Notes under the pieces: generated by a model
Told to the model about the DNA's origin: nothing
Database searches by the model: none
What the model saw: only the letters and a program-made list of their open reading frames with translations
Part shown: piece by piece, positions 32,896 through 48,408 of the stretch
How positions within the stretch are numbered: the stretch's first letter is position 1
How the letters are laid out: each line of letters begins with the position of its first letter
From: Candidatus Coproplasma excrementigallinarum
GTDB taxonomy: Bacteria; Bacillota; Clostridia; Christensenellales; Borkfalkiaceae
Reading direction: 5' to 3'
NCBI GenBank assembly: GCA_018714625.1
Contig: DVNE01000037.1
Span: 1-48,525 of the forward strand
Length of the DNA stretch: 48,525 bases
Made by a program: the position numbers and the translations under genes

Positions 32896-35349
32896 TTACT
32901 TGGAAACCTTTTTCCTTGCGGATACGCGCTTTACCTCGGCCTCGTCTATCACGTCTATATCACCTTTTTCCTTGGGTTTGATAACGATTAAGAGCACTAT
33001 ACCGATGAGTGCAACGCCCGCAATGCTGAGGAGCACTATCGAGGCAACGTTGTCCTGTACCCAGGTGTCTTCGCCATAGACGGGGTCAGCCGCGGCAGAT
33101 ACGCTTATTGCCATATAGCTTACTATGGGGTCGGTGAGGTAGGTGCTGTCCTCCGCCTCGAGCCTTATTACATAGAAGGAGTTGGCGTCGGCTTCCTGAG
33201 GAATAAACGTAAGCGCACTGGAATCCCATTCGTATGCGGAATACAAATCATAGTCTTCCTCTGTTTCGTCAAGGTCGTCGAGCGCAGGTATAAGCGTGAA
33301 GTACTGCCTGTATGCGCGGAAGAAATTTTCATCCTCGGCAAGGCTGGAGGAAAGACCTTTTATAAGCTGTGCATATGATATGGTCTTGCCGGTATCTTCG
33401 GTATAGGCACGCCTGTCGAACACATAGAGCGAATAGTTTGTGCTGTAATTGGAAGAGAGGCCGGTGATATCGAAACTGTCAGCAGAATACTTCGTTCCTA
33501 CAAAGCCTATGTCCTGACCTTCGGGGTCGGTGACGGTAAGGCCGCCGTAGTTTACAGTAAATTCAAACACAGGAACGTAGTCTACAAGCTTGCTCTTTGC
33601 AGGGTCTTCAAGCAGGGAGGCAAGGTCGCTTGCCGCAAATTTTACTATGACGGGCTCGCCGTTCTCGTCCATCACTTCATTGCCGTCTTCGTCGCGCTCA
33701 ATGTAATACATCTGGTTTTCTGCGGCGTCGGTGGCATAGATGGCAAATCTGTAAAGACCGTCGTCCTCTATCTCTATCGAAAGCTCGTTATATGCAAGCG
33801 AGGTGGACGAACCGGAATCGCTGCCTATATAATATATGGAGAAAGAGAGGTCGCGGTAGGACGTGACATTGTCGCGGATATACTCTTCAAAAGAGGGAAG
33901 ATAGAAATAGTTACCGTCGCCCGCGGAGGCCTTCTGCTCTGCAAGCGCCTCTTCTACGAGCTGCTGATAACCTTCAAAGCCGTTCTCTCCCTCTGCTGCG
34001 TCTGCCGCGGGGCTGTAAGTTGCGCCGAGGTTATCGGCTGTTGCCCTTATGAACTTATACTCTTCGTCGTTGGCAGCGCCTGCCGTTACCGTGCTGAGGT
34101 ATTCAGAAGGGATATACCACTCGAGGAACACGTCATCGGAATTGCCGTTTGAAGCAGTGCTGTCTTTTATGGTGAAGTAAACTTTTACAAGGCACTGCGT
34201 GGTGTAGTCGGGGCCGTTGTCAGCCGCGCCGGGCTTATAGGTATCCGCACCCTTGATTACGGGTGCATCATCGCCGGAAGCAACCTCTATAAAGTTGTTG
34301 GTAGCGTCCGTGCCGTCCTCTTCGCCGTCACCCGTGTAGTTGAGGTTGCCAAGCTCGCGCTGGGCGTTGGTGAGTACGTAGTAGTTGAGCGTGGAGCGGG
34401 GCGAAGTTGCAAGCATATCGATTACCGTGTAATCAATATCTATCGTGCGGCCGTAGTCGAGCGTAGTTATATCTTCGTCGAGGCAGAGCACGGGAGGAGT
34501 ATTGTCGTTTATCCTGCGCGCGTCGCTGCCTTCGGTGGTAACGAGCTCGAAGCTCTGATTGTTGAAGGAATAAAGAACCATCGTAACGGGCTCTTCGGCG
34601 CCCTCTGCAAACTGCGCACTGTAAGTCAAAGGAGTTACAGATGTGCTGCTTGTGGAGGAAACATAACTTGCATAACTGCCGCCCACGTTTTCAAATTTGC
34701 CGTAAACGGTGTTTGCCGAAGTCATGCTCTCCGTATCGTTGGTGACTGCCACAGAGTAAACGCCGCCTGCATAATCAGTAAATGAAATTGTTATGCTCTC
34801 GGGCGAAAGGGCAACCGCGTCCTGAGCGGAAACGACTTCCTCTATCGCGTCGGCGCGCTCGGTGGCGTCTTCGGGAAGAGCCTCGCCTATCTTTACATAC
34901 ACGCTCTCGCCGCGGGCGATGAAGGTGACGTAATTATCGGTTACATCGTCCTTGGTCTGGGTGTACTGCTGGCTCTGGAACTTTATGGTGAACGTTTCAA
35001 AGTTGAGCTCGGGGAAGCCTATCTCGGTAGAGAGGAAACCCTCTTCGGGCACGCCCGTGGGGTTACCGTCTTCACGCGCAGAGGCGAACCAGTGATACGC
35101 AAGGTTTTTGCGGTAGGTCACGGTGCTACTGTCGCTGGCGAACTGGAAGGCCGTATAGTAATTTTCGCCTACGGTCTCCTCCTCTATGGAGGCCTGTCCT
35201 GCCGTATAGAAATAGTTGCTGCCCGTCAGGGTGACAGTTCTGTCTGCCTCGGCGGTGAGCGCCCCGCCCGTGATTGCGGCCGCCGCAGCGAGCGATGCAG
35301 CCGAAATGAGCGCAAGCGATGTTATAGAAATTTTCCTGTTTTTGGTCAT
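32896..35349 (-). CDS. Large exported protein with C-terminal TM anchor, function unknown
   Basis: Signal peptide MTKNRKISITSLALISAASLAAAAAITGGALTAEA; C-terminal SIVLLSIAGVALIGIVLLIVIKPKEKG followed by a basic tail. Confidence 0.75.
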   Translation of the reverse strand: MTKNRKISITSLALISAASLAAAAAITGGALTAEADRTVTLTGSNYFYTAGQASIEEETVGENYYTAFQFASDSSTVTYRKNLAYHWFASAREDGNPTGVPEEGFLSTEIGFPELNFETFTIKFQSQQYTQTKDDVTDNYVTFIARGESVYVKIGEALPEDATERADAIEEVVSAQDAVALSPESITISFTDYAGGVYSVAVTNDTESMTSANTVYGKFENVGGSYASYVSSTSSTSVTPLTYSAQFAEGAEEPVTMVLYSFNNQSFELVTTEGSDARRINDNTPPVLCLDEDITTLDYGRTIDIDYTVIDMLATSPRSTLNYYVLTNAQRELGNLNYTGDGEEDGTDATNNFIEVASGDDAPVIKGADTYKPGAADNGPDYTTQCLVKVYFTIKDSTASNGNSDDVFLEWYIPSEYLSTVTAGAANDEEYKFIRATADNLGATYSPAADAAEGENGFEGYQQLVEEALAEQKASAGDGNYFYLPSFEEYIRDNVTSYRDLSFSIYYIGSDSGSSTSLAYNELSIEIEDDGLYRFAIYATDAAENQMYYIERDEDGNEVMDENGEPVIVKFAASDLASLLEDPAKSKLVDYVPVFEFTVNYGGLTVTDPEGQDIGFVGTKYSADSFDITGLSSNYSTNYSLYVFDRRAYTEDTGKTISYAQLIKGLSSSLAEDENFFRAYRQYFTLIPALDDLDETEEDYDLYSAYEWDSSALTFIPQEADANSFYVIRLEAEDSTYLTDPIVSYMAISVSAAADPVYGEDTWVQDNVASIVLLSIAGVALIGIVLLIVIKPKEKGDIDVIDEAEVKRVSARKKVSK

Positions 35350-37190: not shown

Positions 37191-37516
37191 AGGCAGAATT
37201 ATACATTGTTTTGCCGCAAAAGTAAAGCAAAACGCCGCCCGCTCCCGCATTACCGCATATAAAAGTATTATAATAATATTGTAATAGCGGCTGTAACGGC
37301 GGCGCGGCCGAAAAACATTGCCATACAGCTGGCGCAGCCCTATGACGCCTGCTACGGCCTGACAATGCCGTCGGGGGTTTATCAGCATTCGCGGCAGCGG
37401 CTGCACTTTCGGGAGCTTGACTGCTTACGGTGCGGGCTGCACTTTCGGCAGACCGCACTTTTTGCAGGCCTATAGAACTTTCGGCGGGCTGATACAAAAG
37501 TTTACGCAAAAATAAG

Positions 37517-37541
37517 GATTGCCCGGCAATGCCGGGCAATC
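37517..37541 (-). terminator. Hairpin at the 3' end of the phage-like operon
   Basis: GATTGCCCGGC-aat-GCCGGGCAATC. Confidence 0.6.
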
Positions 37542-37576
37542 CGCACCAATTTTTCGGGCAATCCGCCCCCTTTGAA

Positions 37577-38074
37577 TTAAACATACTGTTCAAAGAGATT
37601 TTGCAGAGTATAGTAGTACTGGCCGAGATAGTTCTGCGCTGTTGTATCCGCCATAAACAGGTTGAGCCTTTCGGCCGCGTCGGGTATGGACATATAGTAG
37701 TTGCGCACTATCTGATAGCGGTCGAGATAGGACAGCGAATAGTCTACAATATATCCGGGCTCTTCGTCGCCGCCCCCGCTCGGTTTGTCGTCGTCCGCCG
37801 TGGGCACATTGAGCGAAAGGTTATACACAAGGTTGTCCTTTAAAATTTCAACCTGCTTTTCATACTCCGCGTCCAGCTCGGCGCACTTGTCGGTGTACAG
37901 ACTGGAGTTGAGCATACCTGCCGAAAGCACAATGTTATAAAAGGTCTGTTTGTCCCTTTCAAGCTCGCTTGTAAGCTCGTTCTTGTCCTGCTGGGCGGTG
38001 CGCAGCAACCTCATCTGCACGGTGGAGAGCGCCAGCAACTCCTCCTCGGTCATTTCTATGATATCAAACTCCAA
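37577..38074 (-). CDS. Phage-module terminal gene, unknown function
   Basis: 165 aa ORF, mostly helical with an acidic linker (DDDKPSGGGDEEPG), 4 bp after the preceding gene of the cassette. Confidence 0.6.
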   Translation of the reverse strand: MEFDIIEMTEEELLALSTVQMRLLRTAQQDKNELTSELERDKQTFYNIVLSAGMLNSSLYTDKCAELDAEYEKQVEILKDNLVYNLSLNVPTADDDKPSGGGDEEPGYIVDYSLSYLDRYQIVRNYYMSIPDAAERLNLFMADTTAQNYLGQYYYTLQNLFEQYV

Positions 38075-38078
38075 TAAC

Positions 38079-39302
38079 TCACCCCCTCTTTAAGAATACG
38101 ACTTTTAAGTACTCGGGCAGCTCTGAACACTCCGCCTCGAAAGTGAAGCGTTCGCCCTGCAGATTTACCTCCGCACGGCCGTCTATAACATCGCACACTC
38201 TGACTTTTCCGTCCGTGCGCACGGTGATTTTTTGGCAATTACCCCCTACATATAGTCGTTTCAAATACTTTTTGCCCGCACTGCCGAGGTCGGTGAAGCC
38301 GCTTGCCCATACCCCGCCCGCAGCCTTAGGAACGAGCTCGTAAAGCCCGTCTGAAAAGAAGAAAACTCTGCCGCAGGCGCATATGCAGGACGCCTGTTTT
38401 TTAATGTAGCAGACCGCTCCGCTTTCGCCGTCTATGCAGGCTATGACGCCCTCGCCGTCCAGAGTGCCTGCGGCGTAGTAGGTGTTGCCGCACGCCGCGC
38501 CGCAGGTCGCCGTAAATCCGCGCAGCCCCTCCGCCGCAAACCGTTCGACAGAGGTGCCGCCATAGGCGTACAGCCCGGACTTTGTAAAGAAGAAAAGCTT
38601 GCCCGCGCATACTGCGGCCGTTCCGTCCGTTATCTCGTCGGTAGTGGTATCCGAGAGAGAGACGCGGAAGTCCTCGGCGTCGCCGTAGGCGCGTATTACC
38701 GTAAGCCCGAATTTGCGCACGGCAATCAGCCTCTCTTTAAATACGACTATCGTTAGCACTTCGCCGCGCTCGACATCCAGCCTTACATAACCTGCACCGT
38801 CCAGGCTCTCCGTCCAGTTGCGCGCCCTGCCCGGAACCGACCAGCGGACAACGCGGCCGTCGGCCGTATCGACGCCGAAGACGCGCGAATACATAACCGC
38901 GCCATACTTTACGGGAATGGTTGCCACCGGCGAAACGGAGGTTGCGTCTCCCTTGAACGCCTTGACGCCGTCGGTTACCATGGCGTAGTCCTCGCCGTCC
39001 TCGCACACTTCTATAAAGCAGGGCGAAGAAGAAAAGCCGACGGCGTACTCGAAGAAGTTGTTTACCGCGCGGGTAGAGCGGTAGAGCGTTCCGTCACTGA
39101 GAAGATAGAGGTTGCCGTTTTTTGTGAAGTATATGCCCTGCGCCGAGGCAGGTACATTAGCCTGGGTGAGGGCGACAGCTGAAAACGCGGGGCTTGCGCC
39201 GTCTGCGCCCGCAATACCGAAGAAAGTGCCGTCTGAAAGGTCCGCCTCCCACTCTTTGAAACTGTACTTAGGAAAATCAGTTTTGCGCAGAATGTAGTTC
39301 AT
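38079..39302 (-). CDS. Phage structural protein, beta-propeller-like (possible P22 gp10-type neck/DNA-stabilisation protein)
   Basis: Repeated beta-rich pattern (YFTKNGNLYLLSDGTLYRS, RVFGVDTADGRVVRWSVPGRARNWTES, LTIVVFKERLIAVRKFGLTVIRAYG) typical of phage tail/neck propellers; position after the connector. Confidence 0.55.
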   Translation of the reverse strand: MNYILRKTDFPKYSFKEWEADLSDGTFFGIAGADGASPAFSAVALTQANVPASAQGIYFTKNGNLYLLSDGTLYRSTRAVNNFFEYAVGFSSSPCFIEVCEDGEDYAMVTDGVKAFKGDATSVSPVATIPVKYGAVMYSRVFGVDTADGRVVRWSVPGRARNWTESLDGAGYVRLDVERGEVLTIVVFKERLIAVRKFGLTVIRAYGDAEDFRVSLSDTTTDEITDGTAAVCAGKLFFFTKSGLYAYGGTSVERFAAEGLRGFTATCGAACGNTYYAAGTLDGEGVIACIDGESGAVCYIKKQASCICACGRVFFFSDGLYELVPKAAGGVWASGFTDLGSAGKKYLKRLYVGGNCQKITVRTDGKVRVCDVIDGRAEVNLQGERFTFEAECSELPEYLKVVFLKRG

Positions 39303-39859
39303 ACCCAGCCTCGCGCGGGGATTTGCCCGCCTTTAGTGATGGGGCGCAGCCTTGCAAGCTCCTGCGTGTATCTGCTCTCCCAGCATTCAGAGGCCTCGAT
39401 ATCGCCGCAGATTAAGGAGTACTCCGCCGCAACGCCATACGCCATCAGGCGCTCGCTCACGGGATAACCTGTATAATCCGAGGTGTGATTGAGCTGCTTT
39501 TTAAGCGGCAGATAGGTGTATTTTACAGTTATTGTTTTTGCATCCACCTCCATATATCTTGGTTTGAGCGTGTATTTTAACGCTTTCCCCTCTGAAGTTA
39601 CGCTGAGAATTTTTATGGGCGAGTGGGCAAACACACTGTAATATACAGTGCCTACCGATACGGGAAGCTCCTCCTCGTACTCGAGGGGGAAATACGCGCG
39701 CGCAAGTTCGTCTTCGACGGCGTTGTAACAGTGGACGAGCGCGCCCACTTCCCTCTTCAGATTTTCGTCTTCGGAATAGGAACCGTCGTCCACGGCGTCG
39801 GCCTCCTTATCCATGCCCAGATAGCGCATGGCGGAAACTATTATATCGGAAACAAACAT
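39299..39859 (-). CDS. Phage head-tail connector/adaptor-like protein (possible P22 gp4-type)
   Basis: Short helical protein MFVSDIIVSAMRYLGMDKEAD...HCYNAVEDELARAYFPLEYEEEL, encoded just after the coat gene. 4-bp overlap with the next gene. Confidence 0.55.
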   Translation of the reverse strand: MFVSDIIVSAMRYLGMDKEADAVDDGSYSEDENLKREVGALVHCYNAVEDELARAYFPLEYEEELPVSVGTVYYSVFAHSPIKILSVTSEGKALKYTLKPRYMEVDAKTITVKYTYLPLKKQLNHTSDYTGYPVSERLMAYGVAAEYSLICGDIEASECWESRYTQELARLRPITKGGQIPARGWV

Positions 39860-39891
39860 TTTATTTACCGTCCTCCTGAAAAAAACTTATA

Positions 39892-39919
39892 TCGGCGCGC
39901 GCCGCAGAGCGCGCGCCGA
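39892..39919 (-). terminator. Hairpin with T-tract between coat and connector genes
   Basis: TCGGCGCGCGC-tctgcg-GCGCGCGCCGA then TATAAGTTTTTTT on the minus strand. Confidence 0.65.
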
Positions 39920-40010
39920 AAGCAAATTGTTGCGCCTCATGATGCGCCGAAAACACATTACTTTTACATACAACGCGCCTTAAGCGCATCAGCGCACAGC
40001 GGAACTCAGA

Positions 40011-41153
40011 TTAAAAACCTGTTATTCTGCCCTGGGCGCACGGTCTTTTGCAGATAAGTTCGGCGTACTTTACAAGCGTTGCGCTGTAAGCCGCCTTGCC
40101 GGGAACCTGCTTTAAAATTTTGCCATCCTCGTCCTCGAGCCAGCTCCAGTCGCAGAGCTGAGCTATGCAGAAATCATCGGTATTTATAAGGAAGATTGCG
40201 TCTTCATTGCAGTACCTGTCCGCCACGACGGGTATGCCGTCGAACAGAATGGTGCTGTATCCGCCATTGAGCGTTGCCGTGTTCACCTGCATCCTGCCCG
40301 CGCTGAGAATTTCGGCAATCTTGCTCTTGTTCTTGTAGGAGCAGAGTATCATGTTGGGGCGACGGCCGAAATATTCCTCTATATAGTTTATTCCGTCCAT
40401 TATGGAAGTTTCCGTGAGCGAGGTGACGGAGAATTCAACAGGATTTAAAAAGCTCTCTTCGCTGCGGGTAAGGCCGTAGATGTCATCCGTGCTGAAGAGT
40501 GCAGCGAGACCGGTTATCTCGTTGCCGTAGGCGCCGTGCATGTATATCTTTTTACCTGCAAGCGTGCCCTCTATCTCCTGAGAGAGCGTTATTTTGCCGT
40601 TGCCGTAATCGACCGTTGCAACGGTGACACCCTCGCCGCCCTCGAGTATCAGTGAACCTGACCTTATATCCACCTTCATTCCCTCGAAGAAGCGGCCAAT
40701 CGTATCCACATACAGGCCGGTTGTATCCGTCTTGGATATGTTTCCGAGGAAACCGTTGCCATCGCCGAAGAGCATACGCGAAAAGTTGATTTTTGCGCTG
40801 GCTACAAGGCCCTCCATCTCGGCGTTGAGAAGGTCTACAAACGCTCCGCTCGAATCGGAAGAGGCACGCAGCGCCTTATCGGAAATTTCTATCGTGCCGT
40901 AGATGTTTTTTAGCGTAGATGTAAGATTTATATACCTGTTAGAACCTGCCGTGGGGAGGTCGCCGTCTTCGCTGCCCGCCATAACGCGGTTTATGTCGCC
41001 CCTGACGGCGGCAACCTTTACTTCCTTGCCGAAAACTTCGGCGCTGTTTTTATCTATCGCCGCATAGAAGGGCGAAACGGCGTTGAGCTGGGACGAAACG
41101 GCGTCCAGATAATAGGTCTTAAGAGCTTTGTCTGCATTTGCAACTGTTATCAA
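40011..41153 (-). CDS. Phage major capsid (coat) protein
   Basis: AFYAAIDKNSAEVFGKEVKVAAVRGDINRVMAGSEDGDLPTAGSNRYINLTSTLKNIYGTIEISDKAL...INFSRMLFGDGNGFL. Position after the scaffold-like gene. Confidence 0.8.
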   Translation of the reverse strand: MITVANADKALKTYYLDAVSSQLNAVSPFYAAIDKNSAEVFGKEVKVAAVRGDINRVMAGSEDGDLPTAGSNRYINLTSTLKNIYGTIEISDKALRASSDSSGAFVDLLNAEMEGLVASAKINFSRMLFGDGNGFLGNISKTDTTGLYVDTIGRFFEGMKVDIRSGSLILEGGEGVTVATVDYGNGKITLSQEIEGTLAGKKIYMHGAYGNEITGLAALFSTDDIYGLTRSEESFLNPVEFSVTSLTETSIMDGINYIEEYFGRRPNMILCSYKNKSKIAEILSAGRMQVNTATLNGGYSTILFDGIPVVADRYCNEDAIFLINTDDFCIAQLCDWSWLEDEDGKILKQVPGKAAYSATLVKYAELICKRPCAQGRITGF

Positions 41154-41175
41154 AATTGTTCCTCCTTAAAATAAA

Positions 41176-41616
41176 TCAGTTATTTTTTAAAAATTCTTTT
41201 GCCAGTCTGCCCGCCTCCTTTATGGTTGCAGGCTTGCCGGCAGGCGACGGGACGGAAATCCCGCCTGCGATTATGGGCACGCCCCTGCCGCTTGCCACTT
41301 CGCCGAGGTACTCGGCAATAATTTTGCCGCGCACTTTTTCGTCAGCTTTGGCAAGCTTGTACAGTTCTTCGCCCGAAGTTCGTTCGGGGGAGGGCGCTGC
41401 GCTGTCCGCGTCCGGCGAGCGCTCCGCCTTGTTCCTCCTCTCGAGTTCGGCCAGCCTCTGGCTGCGTCGGGTAAATTCAGCTTCCAGGCCGGCATATGCT
41501 TCCAAAAGGGCCTTTACGTCTTTGAACTTTCCAAGGTCTGCCGCAGCCTGTTTGCCGTTATCTTCCGCCTCCGCGGTATCTGCCGTGCCTTTGAGCTCAT
41601 TTTCAAGGTTATCCAT
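41176..41616 (-). CDS. Phage scaffolding-like protein
   Basis: LGKFKDVKALLEAYAGLEAEFTRRSQRLAELERR is a common scaffold pattern; acidic N-terminus; located between portal and coat. Confidence 0.7.
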   Translation of the reverse strand: MDNLENELKGTADTAEAEDNGKQAAADLGKFKDVKALLEAYAGLEAEFTRRSQRLAELERRNKAERSPDADSAAPSPERTSGEELYKLAKADEKVRGKIIAEYLGEVASGRGVPIIAGGISVPSPAGKPATIKEAGRLAKEFLKNN

Positions 41617-43459
41617 TTGCTTCCTCCTTTAATTTGTTTTTATGTTCTTTTATATGCGCACAGATGCGTTCCTTCACATCCTTGCGCGGCTTTACTGAAA
41701 GTATGTATGCCGTGTGCCGCCTTATGTGTACGGCGTCGTCGTCATACTCGTTGACTTCTGCGGGCATATTCTCCATAGTCCTGTTCTCCTCTTCGGCGCG
41801 CTCCTCCTGCAAGGTTTCAAGGTCGCTGCCCGCAAAACAGCCGTAACCTATGTAGGTCAGCACTCTGTTCTTTGTCTGCGCGCTCATTTTTCCGTCCTCG
41901 CCGAAAAGCAGTCCCTTATCCATCATTTCATATATGACGTTCCTGCGCTCTGCGGGGGTGAGGTTGAGGTCGCTGTCAGACTCCAGTATGACCTCGTCGC
42001 ACAGTACGTCCTCGCCGCGGAACACCGTAGTGCCTGCGCCGCCGCGCACCGCCCTGCCCGCGCCCGAAAACTGTCTGTAAAGACGGAGTATCTGCCTGCC
42101 CGCCTCCTTGAGCGCCGTCTTTATTGACTGGTAGCACACGTTCAGTCGGGCGTCGTCCTGCTCTATGAGCAGCTGAAGTCCCGTAGCCGAGGTCACCGAA
42201 GAGAATGTGTCGCCGTTCTGCGTAAGGTCGCCCGTACCCGAAATGCGTGCAAACTCGTCCTCAAGCGTCTCTTCCTCCCTCTCGAAGGCGTCGGGCAGAG
42301 TGCCTAAAGTGAGCATCTCGGGCGGTTTGCCGCCCTGGCGGTAGACTATTATCTTACCGGGACGCAACCCGTCCTCGGCGAGTTCGTCGGTATCGACCGA
42401 GCCCTCCTCCACGGCAACCGTGCCCATGGAAATTCTGTTGAGAAATTCGTGCTTGCGGTTACGCACCGCGTTGTATGCGCGCTGGACGGGTATCATTCTC
42501 TCGACCACCCCCGCGCCGAAAAAGCTCCCCGCGAGCGGCATGCAGGTCTGCCTTATGAAGGGGTAGGAGCGCGCGCCGTCCTTGCCGTTCATGTAGGGCA
42601 GAGGGCCGTCGAAGAGCAGCTTTCCGCCTGCAACAACGGTAAGTCTGCCCTCGGGCATGGTGTCAGTGGGGCGACAGTAGCGCTCTATGACCACCTCGTA
42701 CCCTCTGCGCAGGGCGCGCACGGGCGACTGTGCGATGTAGCCCGAGGACGAGCAGGGCGAAAGGGCAAACTCGTTTATGTCCCTGCCGGCAAGCTCCACG
42801 CCGTAGGCCGCGCGTATGTCCTGCACGGGTACGGCGCGTGCGTGAATTACCGAGGGCTGACCCTCGAACCCGTCCTCCGAGAGGGAATAGGGATAGATTT
42901 CAAAGGGCGGGACGGCGATTACGCGCACATCGCCCTCGTGTATCTCCCTGCCATCCTCGGTTACGCCTACAACCCCGCCCGCTTCGTTGTCCCACACAAC
43001 CTTGTAGAAGGCCGTGCCGCAGGTCTCCGACCACACTGTGGCCTGCGAGAGGGCGTCCTCCAGTCCGCAGTTCTCCCTTGCCGCACCAAGAAGAGCGGAA
43101 GAGAGCGAAGCCGCGCGCTTGTCCTGCTCGCTCGCGGTGACGGGGCGGACGGAGAGCGCGGGCCGTATGCGCGCAAGTTTTGCACACCTTAGTTCAACCG
43201 TGGGCGCAATGTGGTTGAATACCCTGCGCGGCTGCCAGCCGTACACCTTTTCCTCCTCCTCAACGTCGCCCGCGGCGTTTATGCCGCAGTACTGATTGCC
43301 GCTTACAAAGTTCATGCACAGTTCCCAGCTCCTCTCTGCCAGCCTGCGCTCCCTCTGCCTTGCGGCAAAGTCCTCCTCCACCTCGGCGACAAGCTTCTTT
43401 TCCGCCTCCTGCCGCTGCTTTAACGCCTTTTCGCTTCTGACGTCAGTTTTCTTTGCCAA
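41609..43459 (-). CDS. Phage portal protein (P22-like, 616 aa)
   Basis: Charged N-terminus, RSWELCMNFVSGNQY...RVFNHIAPTVELRCAKLARIRPALSVRPVTAS...GAGVVERMIPVQRAYNAVRNRKHEFLNRIS; adjacent to the terminase. Confidence 0.82.
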   Translation of the reverse strand: MAKKTDVRSEKALKQRQEAEKKLVAEVEEDFAARQRERRLAERSWELCMNFVSGNQYCGINAAGDVEEEEKVYGWQPRRVFNHIAPTVELRCAKLARIRPALSVRPVTASEQDKRAASLSSALLGAARENCGLEDALSQATVWSETCGTAFYKVVWDNEAGGVVGVTEDGREIHEGDVRVIAVPPFEIYPYSLSEDGFEGQPSVIHARAVPVQDIRAAYGVELAGRDINEFALSPCSSSGYIAQSPVRALRRGYEVVIERYCRPTDTMPEGRLTVVAGGKLLFDGPLPYMNGKDGARSYPFIRQTCMPLAGSFFGAGVVERMIPVQRAYNAVRNRKHEFLNRISMGTVAVEEGSVDTDELAEDGLRPGKIIVYRQGGKPPEMLTLGTLPDAFEREEETLEDEFARISGTGDLTQNGDTFSSVTSATGLQLLIEQDDARLNVCYQSIKTALKEAGRQILRLYRQFSGAGRAVRGGAGTTVFRGEDVLCDEVILESDSDLNLTPAERRNVIYEMMDKGLLFGEDGKMSAQTKNRVLTYIGYGCFAGSDLETLQEERAEEENRTMENMPAEVNEYDDDAVHIRRHTAYILSVKPRKDVKERICAHIKEHKNKLKEEANG

Positions 43460-43715
43460 TGTTGTCCTCCTTTAAAAGTTCAATTAATTTTTTTCTGCGC
43501 TCTTCCAGCTCTTCGTCGCTCAGGTTTTCAACGCCCGTGTCGCCGTCGAGCAGCATTTTTACAGCCTTTATATCGGGCGGGACGTCCCGCCTTGTCACTT
43601 TGCGCTTTACAAGCCTGAGTTCCTCGCCGTCCACGGCGTATTCCTCCACGACCTCGCTCGTATCGAACCCAACCGCGCACTTCAAAAGCGCCTTTTTTAT
43701 GCCCTCATCGTTCAA
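43443..43715 (-). CDS. Small protein resembling the C-terminal part of terminase small subunits
   Basis: ALLKCAVGFDTSEVVEEYAVDGEELRLVKRKVTRRDVPPDIKAVKMLL; overlaps the terL 3' end and the portal 5' end. Confidence 0.5.
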   Translation of the reverse strand: MNDEGIKKALLKCAVGFDTSEVVEEYAVDGEELRLVKRKVTRRDVPPDIKAVKMLLDGDTGVENLSDEELEERRKKLIELLKEDNIGKEN

Positions 43716-45150
43716 TTTTTTTGTTCAACCTCCTTATTCTGCGCTCCTTGTCCGCCGCGAGCGGCGCGGGAGCGTATTCCCTCTCCGCAGGGCGCGGCCT
43801 CGTCATTATAAAGTACCTCAGCTCGTCCATGCTGTGGTCGTCGCGCTTTATTGGCGAATCGCCCGCACCCCAGCTGTAACCCTTGAACTCGGCAATCATG
43901 TTTGTGCAGCAGGGGAATATGAACAAATCGGGCGTGCCGTTGCCGCGGGCAAGATAGCTCTTCACGCGCGCTATTCCCGTAAATACGTCCTTATTGACGT
44001 TGGTGTCCACAAGTATTCCCCTCTCGCAGAACAGCTCGGCCACCGATTTTGTCGAGGCGAGCGTGCGCTGATTTGCGGCGCTGTCTATGAGTGCGCGCAA
44101 CCTGCCCTTTGAATCCGTCTTCCAGCCCAGTCTGCGGCTGATTTCGCATATGGCGCGGGCGTGGTAGTCTATATCCCTGCCCTTTTCGTAGTGCTCTGCC
44201 ACGACATACACGTTGCCGTCCCAGTCCACACAGTACCAGTGCGCCGAAAGCGGGTTGTTAAGTCCCGGGTCTATCGAGATTATCTCCTGCCACTCGCGCG
44301 GGACGGTGAACGGCTTTTGCAGGACGTGCACGGCCTCGTCAAACTCGGGATAAACAAGTCCGCACCCCTCTGAAAACCTGCCGTACTTTCTGCTGTCGAG
44401 CGAAGAACCTTCAAGCGCGCCCTCAAGCAGCTTTATTTCGCTGGCTGAAAGAAAGGGATTATCTTCCCAGTTCATAAACTCGTACCAGATTTCGGGATTA
44501 TTTTTTTTGTTCAGGTAAATCTCGGTGTATATAAATGTCCTGCCCTTGAGCGGCGTCATTGTGCCGAAGATGTCGCCCCGCTTATCCATCACCCTCATAA
44601 GGCACTCTTCATAGATGTCCCTGGGCGGCTCTTCGTCGAACCACACAAAGTCGAGCGAAGCGCCCTGGAATTTTTCCCTGCCCTGGTCGCAGCTTTTAAA
44701 ACCTATCGTGGATATGCCGCCGAAGACGTTTTTTATCTTTATCTGGTCGATTATGCCCGAGGCAGGGCTGTCCTTTCGCCCCGAAATCATAACGATATCA
44801 TCTATCCAGCTCCTGGGCAGATATTGCAGTATCTTGCTCTGCGCCACGTCGCGCTGAACCTGCTGCGAGAGCGAAACCACCCAGCCGAACACGTCCTTTC
44901 TGTTCTTTCTGTACGGGTGATTGCCGCGCGCCATCCAGATTGCCTCCACCGCGCCGCACTCCGTCTTGCCAGAGCGGTTGCCCCCGAATACCCATCTGTT
45001 GCGCTTTTTACATTTATGGAAGGCGAGCTGTTTTTTGTGTTTTTTGCGGCCGACATTGTAGGTTAGCAGTCTGTTGCCCTTTTTCCTCCTCTCCAGCTCG
45101 CCCTCCACCTTTAAAAGTTCTTCAAAAAGTTGCTCTTTCTCCATTCTCAA
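43705..45150 (-). CDS. terL: Phage terminase large subunit
   Basis: Walker A FGGNRSGKTECG, Walker B LDFVWFDEEPP, nuclease motifs SIDPG and KRDDHSMDELRYFI. Confidence 0.93.
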   Translation of the reverse strand: MRMEKEQLFEELLKVEGELERRKKGNRLLTYNVGRKKHKKQLAFHKCKKRNRWVFGGNRSGKTECGAVEAIWMARGNHPYRKNRKDVFGWVVSLSQQVQRDVAQSKILQYLPRSWIDDIVMISGRKDSPASGIIDQIKIKNVFGGISTIGFKSCDQGREKFQGASLDFVWFDEEPPRDIYEECLMRVMDKRGDIFGTMTPLKGRTFIYTEIYLNKKNNPEIWYEFMNWEDNPFLSASEIKLLEGALEGSSLDSRKYGRFSEGCGLVYPEFDEAVHVLQKPFTVPREWQEIISIDPGLNNPLSAHWYCVDWDGNVYVVAEHYEKGRDIDYHARAICEISRRLGWKTDSKGRLRALIDSAANQRTLASTKSVAELFCERGILVDTNVNKDVFTGIARVKSYLARGNGTPDLFIFPCCTNMIAEFKGYSWGAGDSPIKRDDHSMDELRYFIMTRPRPAEREYAPAPLAADKERRIRRLNKKIER

Positions 45151-45181
45151 AACTATGCGCGCGGCCGCAATTCCCTCCTTT

Positions 45182-45211
45182 TTGACTTTTTATTACAAAA
45201 TATGCTAATAT
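45182..45211 (+). promoter_or_regulatory. Candidate promoter of the exported 274-aa gene
   Basis: TTGACT, 18 bp spacer, TAATAT. Confidence 0.5.
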
Positions 45212-45243
45212 CTTCACTGCTTACGCCCTTTAAAATATTCGGT

Positions 45244-45954
45244 ATGAAAGGTCTATCGGTCGTATGCGCGCTGCTCGTTGCGGCAATTTTATTGTTTGCG
45301 CCCTGCACGGCATACGCTCAGTCAACCGAATACCAACCGACCGCCCAGACGGTGTATGCGCGCGCGCTTTCACGCGAGGCGTATTTCTGCACGCTGCCCG
45401 ATTTAGCGACGAGCACTTTTGCCGTGCCATATACATACTGCGTGGAAGTGCTGTCCGACGACGGCGAATGGTTCAGAGTGAAGTACGCCGAAGACTACGG
45501 CATATACCGCGCCGTGTACGGATATGTACAAAAGCGCGACTTTGAACTGGTTTCCGAAAGGCCGCAGACCGTCTACCTCTATAAGCCGATATCGGTCACA
45601 TTCTCGCAGGACGCACCTTCGGGCAACCTGCCCGTAATAGGCGACATAACCGTCACAGCGGCGTTTTACGGCTCGTATTACAGCGGCGCGGCAGGGTATT
45701 CCTATGTGCTGTGTGAAGATTCGTTCGGCTATATTGTGGGGGCAAATGAAGATTACCCCCTCATCCTGCCCGAAAATACAGATACGGATAACCCTGCCAA
45801 ACAGCCCGCCTCCAACGGCGGGAAAATTGCCGCAGGCGTGATACTTGGCGTGCTTGCGCTTACAGCCGTTGCCGTTGCAATGCTTTCAGGCAAGAAGGGC
45901 AAACGCAAGAGCTCAAATAAGACCAGCGACCCGTTCGGCCCCAAATACCGCTGA
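45244..45954 (+). CDS. Exported SH3-like protein with C-terminal TM and basic tail
   Basis: Signal peptide MKGLSVVCALLVAAILLFAPCTAYAQ; SH3b-like VYARALSREAYFCTLPD...VEVLSDDGEWFRVKYAE...GYVQKRDFE; TM KIAAGVILGVLALTAVAVAML then KKGKRKSS. Start position uncertain (45130, 45202 or 45244). Confidence 0.65.
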   Translation: MKGLSVVCALLVAAILLFAPCTAYAQSTEYQPTAQTVYARALSREAYFCTLPDLATSTFAVPYTYCVEVLSDDGEWFRVKYAEDYGIYRAVYGYVQKRDFELVSERPQTVYLYKPISVTFSQDAPSGNLPVIGDITVTAAFYGSYYSGAAGYSYVLCEDSFGYIVGANEDYPLILPENTDTDNPAKQPASNGGKIAAGVILGVLALTAVAVAMLSGKKGKRKSSNKTSDPFGPKYR

Positions 45955-46194: not shown

Positions 46195-46569
46195 TCAGTC
46201 GAAGAAGCAGAACTCCTTCATTGCGGCTATGCCCTCGGCGTGCTCCTGCGAATGGCTGCGTATGCGCCTTGCAAACGCCTCTGCCAGTCTGTGCGCCCGC
46301 TTGCCCTCGTCCTCTGTAATGCGCGAAAAGGCGTACCTGTATAAGACCATTCTGTCCTGCGGGGTAAACGTGTTCATTGCCCAGGATAACAGCGAGTTGA
46401 GCTCACGCAGGCGCTGTCTTTTAATGGTCAGGGCTACGACCTCTGCAACGCAGTCCTCTGCACTGCGCGCGTCAAACGCCTTGCACGCCTTTTTGAGTAT
46501 CAGCCTTTCAATCCTCCTCTCCGCCTCTGCGGATAAAAAATAGTACCTGATTATTTGCTTTACCTTCAT
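46195..46569 (-). CDS. Small helical regulator-like protein (sigma/late-activator-like)
   Basis: MKVKQIIRYYFLSAEAERRIERLILKKACK...NTFTPQDRMVLYRYAFSRITEDEGKRAHRLAEAFARRI; SD AGGGG before the trimmed start. Distant size and layout resemblance to phage ArpU/RinA/DUF1492-type proteins only. Confidence 0.5.
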   Translation of the reverse strand: MKVKQIIRYYFLSAEAERRIERLILKKACKAFDARSAEDCVAEVVALTIKRQRLRELNSLLSWAMNTFTPQDRMVLYRYAFSRITEDEGKRAHRLAEAFARRIRSHSQEHAEGIAAMKEFCFFD

Positions 46570-46592
46570 TCTGATGTCCCCTAAACACAAAT

Positions 46593-46608
46593 ACAAACAT
46601 TTGTTTGT
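46593..46608. promoter_or_regulatory. Hyphenated inverted repeat between -10 box and regulator gene
   Basis: ACAAAC-attt-GTTTGT; minus-strand TATAAT at 46622-46627. Confidence 0.4.
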
Positions 46609-46944: not shown

Positions 46945-48408
46945 GTGAGAAAATTTTTTGCAGCAATATCGGCGGTAGCCGTGCTTATTGCGGGTGCACT
47001 GCCCGCGGCTCAGACCGCCCTGGCACAAACTGAATATCCCTCCGCCCGTGCGGATACCGTTTACCCGGATTTTGTTTCCGATTTACCACTCGACGCAATA
47101 GACTGCTACGCCATAAACGGCGACGAATTTGCCTTCTCGCGCGAGGAATTTCTGTATATTTACTCTGGCGGAACGCGCACAAGCTCTCAGGACGAAGAGG
47201 GCAACCCCGCCTATATCTACGAGGGCGGCGTTATGCAGGGCTCTGCGGACGGAGTTATCTATGCCGCTGAACATACGGGCATAATAACCTCGCTCTGGTA
47301 CGACGCATACTCAGATGCGGACGGCGACGAGCAGACGGCACTCTTTTTTGCCGACGAGACGGGCGATGTTTACCGCTTTGACGGTTCGGGTACAGAACCC
47401 GAACAGCAGCCTGGCACAGAGCAACCCGCAGGCGAGCAGATAGTTACTAAAAACGGGCTTGCCTATTCGATTAAAAACGGCAGCCTTTCAGTGACCGATT
47501 TTACAGATTTGCGCGGCGAGGCTGACTTCCCCGCAGGCACATATTCGCACCTTAAAATGCAGGACGGCGACATATATGTTCTTAAAGATAACCTGCTGTG
47601 CATTATAGAGGGTGACACACTGGAAAAGGTGACCGTAAAGGGCATAACTTTCCGCTACACTGATGTAACCCAGGCCTACACAATCTCCGTCGGCAACAGC
47701 GCAACCCTTTTAAAAGAGGGCGGCGAGGTGCAGTTTGCCTACATTCCCGCAGGACAGTACATGACCGAGGTAGACCTCTCTGACCTCTCAGCCGAATATT
47801 TCGCCGTCGGGGAAGAGGGTACATTTGTAACGAGGCAGTCGCAGTATGCGCTGGTGCTCTGCACCACGGGCAACGCCGACATCGTGGCCATAGGCGGGAA
47901 GGCGTATATCACAAAATCGCTGTCAACGCGCATAAACGGACAGGATACCTCCGCGCCTTTTTCAGGCGGACAGCTTGTGTACGCCGCAGGCATATACAGC
48001 TCCCCCTTTATGAACGAAGGTACCAAGCTTGCCACGCTTGACATAGGTTCAAAGGTAAAAATATCGCGCCAGATAACGGCCGCAGGACAGCCCACGGCTT
48101 CTGGCGTGTTGCAGACAGACTTCTGTCTTGCCACATTTGTGGCCGAGGACGGCACGCAGACCACCGGCTACATCGCCACATCATTCCTCACCGCATACGA
48201 TTTTTCCGCCGAGGACGGCGACTTTACAGAGCCTACCCTCCCCGAAGATTACAGCGAACAGAATGTGATTTTAACAGTCGTGCTCATTATTGTTATAGTG
48301 GTGCTTGTTATAGCAGGCGTCGCGTACCTCTCCTACTCGAGCGGAGCAGGCAAGCGCAAAAAACGCGAAGGACGCTCGCGCGACGAAATAAAGACGGACG
48401 AAAAGTAA
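46945..48408 (+). CDS. Exported protein, single C-terminal TM, basic tail; possible beta-propeller plus SH3-like regions
   Basis: GTG start; signal peptide (M/V)RKFFAAISAVAVLIAGALPAAQTALAQ; TM VILTVVLIIVIVVLVIAGVAYL then GKRKKREGRSRDE; FCLATFVAEDGTQTTGYIATSFLTAYDF SH3-like. Confidence 0.75.
   Translation: MRKFFAAISAVAVLIAGALPAAQTALAQTEYPSARADTVYPDFVSDLPLDAIDCYAINGDEFAFSREEFLYIYSGGTRTSSQDEEGNPAYIYEGGVMQGSADGVIYAAEHTGIITSLWYDAYSDADGDEQTALFFADETGDVYRFDGSGTEPEQQPGTEQPAGEQIVTKNGLAYSIKNGSLSVTDFTDLRGEADFPAGTYSHLKMQDGDIYVLKDNLLCIIEGDTLEKVTVKGITFRYTDVTQAYTISVGNSATLLKEGGEVQFAYIPAGQYMTEVDLSDLSAEYFAVGEEGTFVTRQSQYALVLCTTGNADIVAIGGKAYITKSLSTRINGQDTSAPFSGGQLVYAAGIYSSPFMNEGTKLATLDIGSKVKISRQITAAGQPTASGVLQTDFCLATFVAEDGTQTTGYIATSFLTAYDFSAEDGDFTEPTLPEDYSEQNVILTVVLIIVIVVLVIAGVAYLSYSSGAGKRKKREGRSRDEIKTDEK

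Follow-up and report, generated by a model that had tools for sequence, protein, structure and literature searches.

To our knowledge, gene transfer agents (GTAs) with known genes are few and come from alphaproteobacteria, Brachyspira and, recently, Faecalibacterium. RcGTA (Rhodogtaviriformidae) is siphovirus-like and possesses tail genes. Six GTA-defining features were published by Kogay et al. in 2022, i.e. Caudoviricete-derived particle proteins, an endogenised genome that often occupies several loci, mostly vertical inheritance, packaging of mostly random host DNA, an own genome that is not fully packageable, and delivery of DNA to other cells (PMC9662315). Loss of the N-terminal DNA-binding part of the small terminase (TerS) was described for RcGTA and proposed as the GTA-defining hallmark (PMC6854486). 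In Faecalibacterium, FpGTA particles were validated in a virome study of 2026. FpGTA I particles contain ~8.5-9 kb of DNA, the TerS is described as lacking a DNA-binding domain, and a second operon encodes a baseplate, fibre, receptor-binding protein, holin and endolysin (PMC12946183). For Christensenellaceae (HGM11616, QANA01), the same study reported that short random pieces of host DNA are packaged in a GTA-like manner, no operon being named (PMC12946183).

The DNA analyzed here (the window, 48,525 nucleotides in full) is part of a 1.43-Mb draft genome of Candidatus Coproplasma excrementigallinarum. Candidatus Coproplasma is placed in the Borkfalkiaceae, order Christensenellales, by GTDB (PMC8035907). 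The minus strand of the window carries, at positions 37577-45150, an intact operon for the large terminase TerL, TerS, portal, scaffold, coat, adaptor, tail nozzle and a 165-aa protein. The unit resembles FpGTA I in comprising about 10 genes in about 10 kb, among them a TerS without a DNA-binding domain, TerL, portal, scaffold and major capsid protein, as well as in its short-tailed-phage parts, its genus-wide presence and its gut Bacillota host; the resemblance is one of gene lists. In contrast to FpGTA I, for which particles have been seen and a second operon is present, the Coproplasma unit is known from genes alone. Furthermore, it occurs in Christensenellales, where sh3 and a sigma-like gene accompany it, and a lysis set was not recognized in Borkfalkiaceae. 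Vertical inheritance with the host, a TerS without the N-terminal DNA-binding domain and the absence of replication and integration genes are shared with RcGTA, and in family f26 the genes are spread over the genome as in RcGTA. The Christensenellales set differs from RcGTA in that portal, coat and nozzle are of the P22/SU10 type and a tail tube is absent. P22/SU10-type podoviruses are similar with respect to portal and coat homology, nozzle fold and head-neck gene order, whereas the Coproplasma unit is devoid of integrase, replication, lysis, tailspike and immunity genes.

Layout of the unit and its chromosomal setting

As originally predicted, the eight minus-strand ORFs are open frames that overlap or are separated by short gaps. 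A terminator-like hairpin with a 12-bp stem (37516-37542, minus strand) follows downstream of the last gene, and the host gene past it, announced as a methyltransferase gene, is rRNA-methyltransferase-like. The statement that integrase, replication and lysis genes are absent held for the operon and the directly flanking genes. The genes directly adjacent to the operon are host genes, identical in congeners, which sets the locus apart from a temperate prophage of the P22 kind. Prophage hallmarks (integrase, att sites, lysis or tail modules outside the operon) were not found, the same host flanks being present in all congeners read.

The conserved unit extends beyond the right edge originally given, to about position 46596, and consists of 10 genes in ~9 kb (~9.0 kb in the window), namely the eight operon genes plus sh3 and p133. 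In the genus, gene order, orientation and flanks were identical in all congeners with enough sequence, the order being parE, m817, RluA, methyltransferase, operon, sh3, p133 and p487. Contigs of named Candidatus Coproplasma MAGs, e.g. C. avistercoris, bear the same locus. Outside the genus, both in the rest of the family and in other families, the operon resides at a different chromosomal place with unchanged internal order.

The sh3 gene (45130-45954, plus strand, likely start ~45244) encodes a putative secreted or membrane-anchored protein, for which an SH3-like part, a signal and a transmembrane helix were judged by eye only; no Pfam match was obtained. It adjoins terL divergently in 44/44 genus loci, in 32/34 further family-level loci (including Gallimonas) and in 15/18 loci of other families, and its orientation is divergent wherever it occurs. 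The candidate regulator gene p133 (46195-46596, minus strand) is likewise present in all 44 genus loci. Its homologues in other families carry a helix-turn-helix domain of the sigma-70 region-4 type (Sigma70_r4_2, 3.2e-10) or match phage late regulators (phrog_36, 4.8e-15), and no domain was detectable in Coproplasma p133 itself. Three neighboring proteins of the window (32896-35349, 46945-48408 and 45130-45954), all without a Pfam match, appear by eye to be built alike, with a signal peptide and an extracellular part, a single membrane helix at the C-terminus and a basic tail.

In several other families, the operon ends with dual holins (BhlA holin and Phage_holin_1). Further genes in other families encode a zinc-ribbon-like protein (by eye), a protein of ~120 aa and full-length DUF7934. 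The original suggestion that lysis loci might merely lie outside the window did not find support: a BhlA match was absent from 36/37 Coproplasma genomes, neither a lysis nor an adhesin gene was identified in Coproplasma, and no holin was found in Borkfalkiaceae.

Motor, head and neck proteins

TerL (43705-45150, minus strand, likely start ATG 45144) matched phrog_2 (E 8.5e-33) and Pfam Terminase_6N. Its motifs had been called intact, and alignment showed that the ATPase motifs FGGNRSGKT and WFDEEPP and the nuclease motifs SIDPG, LIDSAA and DDHxMDE are conserved order-wide. In genome G031, terL is present as two ORFs overlapping by 4 bases (L026, 16919-18348), one for the ATPase half and one for the nuclease half. 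This might be due to a nonsense or frameshift change, a gene fission or an assembly error.

The assignment of the following small gene (43443-43715, minus strand) as terS was borne out by the PHROG TerS family phrog_309, which matched 14/18 family members. The homologues aligned only to positions ~195-246 of the 319 in the profile. The AF2 model comprised elements in the order H-E-E-H-H and did not contain an N-terminal helix-turn-helix; Foldseek with this model gave no meaningful match. The protein thus corresponds to the GTA-type TerS without an N-terminal DNA-binding domain (PMC6854486).

The identities claimed for portal and coat were corroborated by strong matches to phage families. The portal protein (41609-43459, minus strand) is of the P22/SU10 type (phrog_156, 2.2e-40; Pfam P22_portal, 3.7e-18), and the major capsid protein (40011-41153, minus strand) belongs to phrog_14242/SU10_MCP (phrog_14242, 3.4e-44). 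A PDB sequence search with coat and portal yielded nothing significant. For the proposed scaffold (41176-41616, minus strand) and connector (39299-39859, minus strand), position, size and conserved synteny agree with the assignment, whereas a database family match was obtained for neither. The former is small and keeps its place between portal and coat, which points to a scaffold. The latter, a probable head-tail adaptor by its position, was detected by its own profile in most loci across the order, and database search provided no convincing external family. A further terminator-like hairpin with a 12-bp stem (39892-39919, minus strand) resides in the coat-adaptor gap, where it possibly sets, through read-through, the expression of neck genes relative to head genes. 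A conserved post-coat terminator as a general means of stoichiometry control was rejected, as such hairpins were present in 10/40 congeners compared with 5/40 shuffles. The operon of G169 (f26; L257, 8035-10379) contains two different coat genes in tandem.

The 407-aa protein encoded at 38079-39302 (minus strand) is a P22 gp10-like tail nozzle. The beta-propeller that had been anticipated was modeled by AF2 with a pLDDT of 89.5, and Foldseek led to podovirus nozzles, with the Pa223 tail as the best match (1.2e-14) beside P22 gp10, Sf6 gp8 and the T7 tail. A counterpart of gp26 was not recognized in the last gene (37577-38074, minus strand). Instead, its coiled-coil-like 165-aa product aligned only to the C-terminal part of Pfam DUF7934 (PF25588, E 2.6e-4), a protein of ~300 aa in other families, where homologue L035 matched with E 1.7e-121. 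A role as plug or needle is possible.

Prevalence, selection and descent

The coat gene was found in 33/37 genomes of the genus. Only one of the four coat-less genomes represents a proven loss, namely G024, where a clean deletion has removed p133, sh3 and all eight operon genes, so that p487 abuts the methyltransferase gene. Other apparent absences were rejected as losses because the assembly was missing or broken: G001 and G033 do not contain the region, G008 ends in a contig break, and G011 retains a coat fragment at a contig break together with the operon end. Across the order, TerL was detected in 150/247 genomes, nearly always as a single copy (nearly all genomes at least 90% complete; cut-off E<=1e-60; full-length matches of 730-940 bits). 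In most members of f26, which have genomes of 0.8-1.2 Mb, terL, sh3 and p133 are located 40-100 kb from a terS-portal-coat-holin block, and both parts are kept.

Patchy presence and pseudogenes in sister strains had been named as observations that would speak against a retained particle. The former does not apply, since nearly all genomes of the genus and of several other families carry the operon, whose tree follows that of DnaK. The latter are rare, with the clean deletion in G024, a partial replacement in G226 and the split terL of G031. These few losses and disruptions indicate that the operon is dispensable. Among loci L331-L335, that of G226 (L331, C20:26000-39000) has terL interrupted at codon ~281, and everything from there to the end of the coat gene has given way to genes for a C5 methyltransferase and a Thoeris system (two ThsB and a ThsA macro domain). 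In G456 and G466, this codon of terL is followed by the same foreign end sequence, and contigs of G003 break exactly at this point. There seems to be an element with defense genes that targets this terL site.

Median dN/dS over 13 close pairs was 0.088 for TerL, 0.10 for TerS, 0.14 for the portal, 0.11 for the coat and 0.32 for the nozzle, the fastest evolving gene of the operon. The flanking host genes gave medians of 0.12 (methyltransferase) and 0.07 (RluA) at dS values similar to those of the operon genes. Judged by these ratios, purifying selection acts on the operon as on the flanking host genes, TerL being at their level. Allele replacement was evident for the nozzle, which shared 64% identity between L055 and L057 while most other genes shared 96-99%, and for the coat, which shared 54% identity between L094 and L098 with TerL at 96%. 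Therefore, exchange within the lineage occurs. The nozzle is swapped with conserved ends between near-identical strains, as a receptor-facing part might be.

Within the genus, operon and flank trees had 20/35 splits in common (shuffle maximum 2; Mantel 0.81). At the order level, a TerL+portal+coat tree was compared for 26 genomes with that of DnaK, whose gene is unlinked and located elsewhere in the genome. The two shared 14/23 splits, including between-family groupings, at a label-shuffle maximum of 2. A single conflict was strong, and the Mantel r between families was 0.68 (p<0.0005). TerL alone shared 8/23 splits with DnaK.

A probable gene transfer agent and other readings

The original proposal of a retained host-controlled particle rather than a decaying prophage is supported by fixed flanks, prevalence in the genus, the DnaK-like tree and the rarity of pseudogenes. 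A conserved motor, a DNA-binding-deficient TerS, head and nozzle, the lack of replication and integration genes and co-diversification with the host together make a GTA the best explanation, and the truncated TerS and the FpGTA precedent strengthen this reading. We therefore regard the unit with good confidence as a new vertically inherited, podovirus-type GTA family (viriform), known here from its genes alone. Compared with the published features, the particle proteins are Caudoviricete-derived (TerL, portal and coat by PHROG/Pfam, nozzle by structure), the genome is endogenised, with fixed host flanks and split loci in f26, and inheritance is mostly vertical, with 14/23 splits common to DnaK and 20/35 to the flanks in the genus. 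For packaging of random host DNA, the indications are indirect, namely the truncated TerS and the virome data on Christensenellaceae (PMC12946183). With regard to packaging of its own genome, the unit measures ~9.0 kb in the window and is dispersed in f26.

Exaptation of a podovirus head, motor and short nozzle when Christensenellales had not yet diversified, or had only begun to do so, is the best reading of its origin. It is rather likely that the family is ancient, was exapted at or near the root of the order and has co-diversified with at least 12 families of gut bacteria, having been cut down in Borkfalkiaceae to motor, head and nozzle plus a sigma-like switch and the divergent membrane protein, with a release route still to be found. 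The sigma-like p133 and the divergent sh3-terL promoter region would switch the operon on in some cells. Scaffold and coat would assemble on the portal, and TerL, guided by a TerS without a specific DNA-binding part, would cut bulk chromosomal DNA and pump headfuls of it, after which adaptor, nozzle and the DUF7934 protein could close the head. If this is true, with a GTA-like unit inherited vertically throughout an order of common animal-gut bacteria, the exchange of genes through particles built by the host would be a standing trait of much of the gut microbiota. The operon is a candidate for the GTA-like DNA packaging in Christensenellaceae viromes, for which no operon has been named. Control and release can be approached through the conserved auxiliary genes, namely those for the regulator, the membrane protein and, in some families, the holins.

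The same genomic evidence, with motor and capsid under selection, would be expected for a domesticated particle whose packaged DNA serves a purpose other than gene transfer, such as phage interference or decoy, altruistic lysis, or DNA export for biofilm or nutrition, and the diversification of the nozzle would likewise be in keeping with a part exposed to an arms race. Since the shortened TerS and the complete set of packaging genes agree with bulk packaging of DNA, and known domesticated packaging particles of such make-up are GTAs, we consider this unlikely. Repeated entry of a defective or remnant prophage family at the same site is hardly credible: integrase and att sites are absent, the flanks are identical even between well-diverged species, the frames are intact, the operon tree agrees with those of DnaK and the flanks, and dN/dS is far below 1. 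In favor of it, the proteins are of phage origin, and related loci of prophage-like character are present in other Clostridia (L250, L326) and among IMG/VR contigs (L164). L254 is likewise prophage-like.

Contigs that encode this TerL at 55-73% identity are classed as viral in IMG/VR, as might be expected if the unit were a capsid-encoding mobile satellite or an immobilised active prophage that packages itself and keeps its replication and integration genes elsewhere. However, most of these contigs carry the same operon, in many cases flanked by sh3/p133 or by other sequence of non-phage type, and therefore most of the close ones look like misfiled chromosome. A TerS without a specific DNA-binding part and one copy per genome at fixed sites also argue against self-packaging, which we judge improbable. 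The nearest cultured phages share only ~29% identity in TerL and ~26% in the coat. Points against the GTA reading are the few losses described above, the lack of an identified lysis or adhesin gene in Coproplasma, and TerL homologues scoring 640-710 bits in phage or prophage-like loci beyond the set described here. In a quick TerL tree, which had several weak forks and some long branches, f100, f64, the f50 prophage-like locus and two IMG/VR contigs were set apart from most TerLs of the order, and f13 fell with this group.

A related scaffold-coat-130aa-adaptor-nozzle block was observed in f64, from another order of the class (L251, L252, L330, L311-L313). It resides beside serC in three species of one genus, with leucine-biosynthesis genes on the other side in two, and the f64 TerL is encoded on another contig. 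Apparently, this is a second, split, domesticated particle. Loci L321-L325 of f39, in which genes for TerL and a portal lie near yqgF together with a fibre-like gene, were rejected as members of the same system. In three genera these genes, with no capsid gene nearby, surround an XRE regulator, often beside yqgF, and they possibly constitute another dispersed domesticated system.
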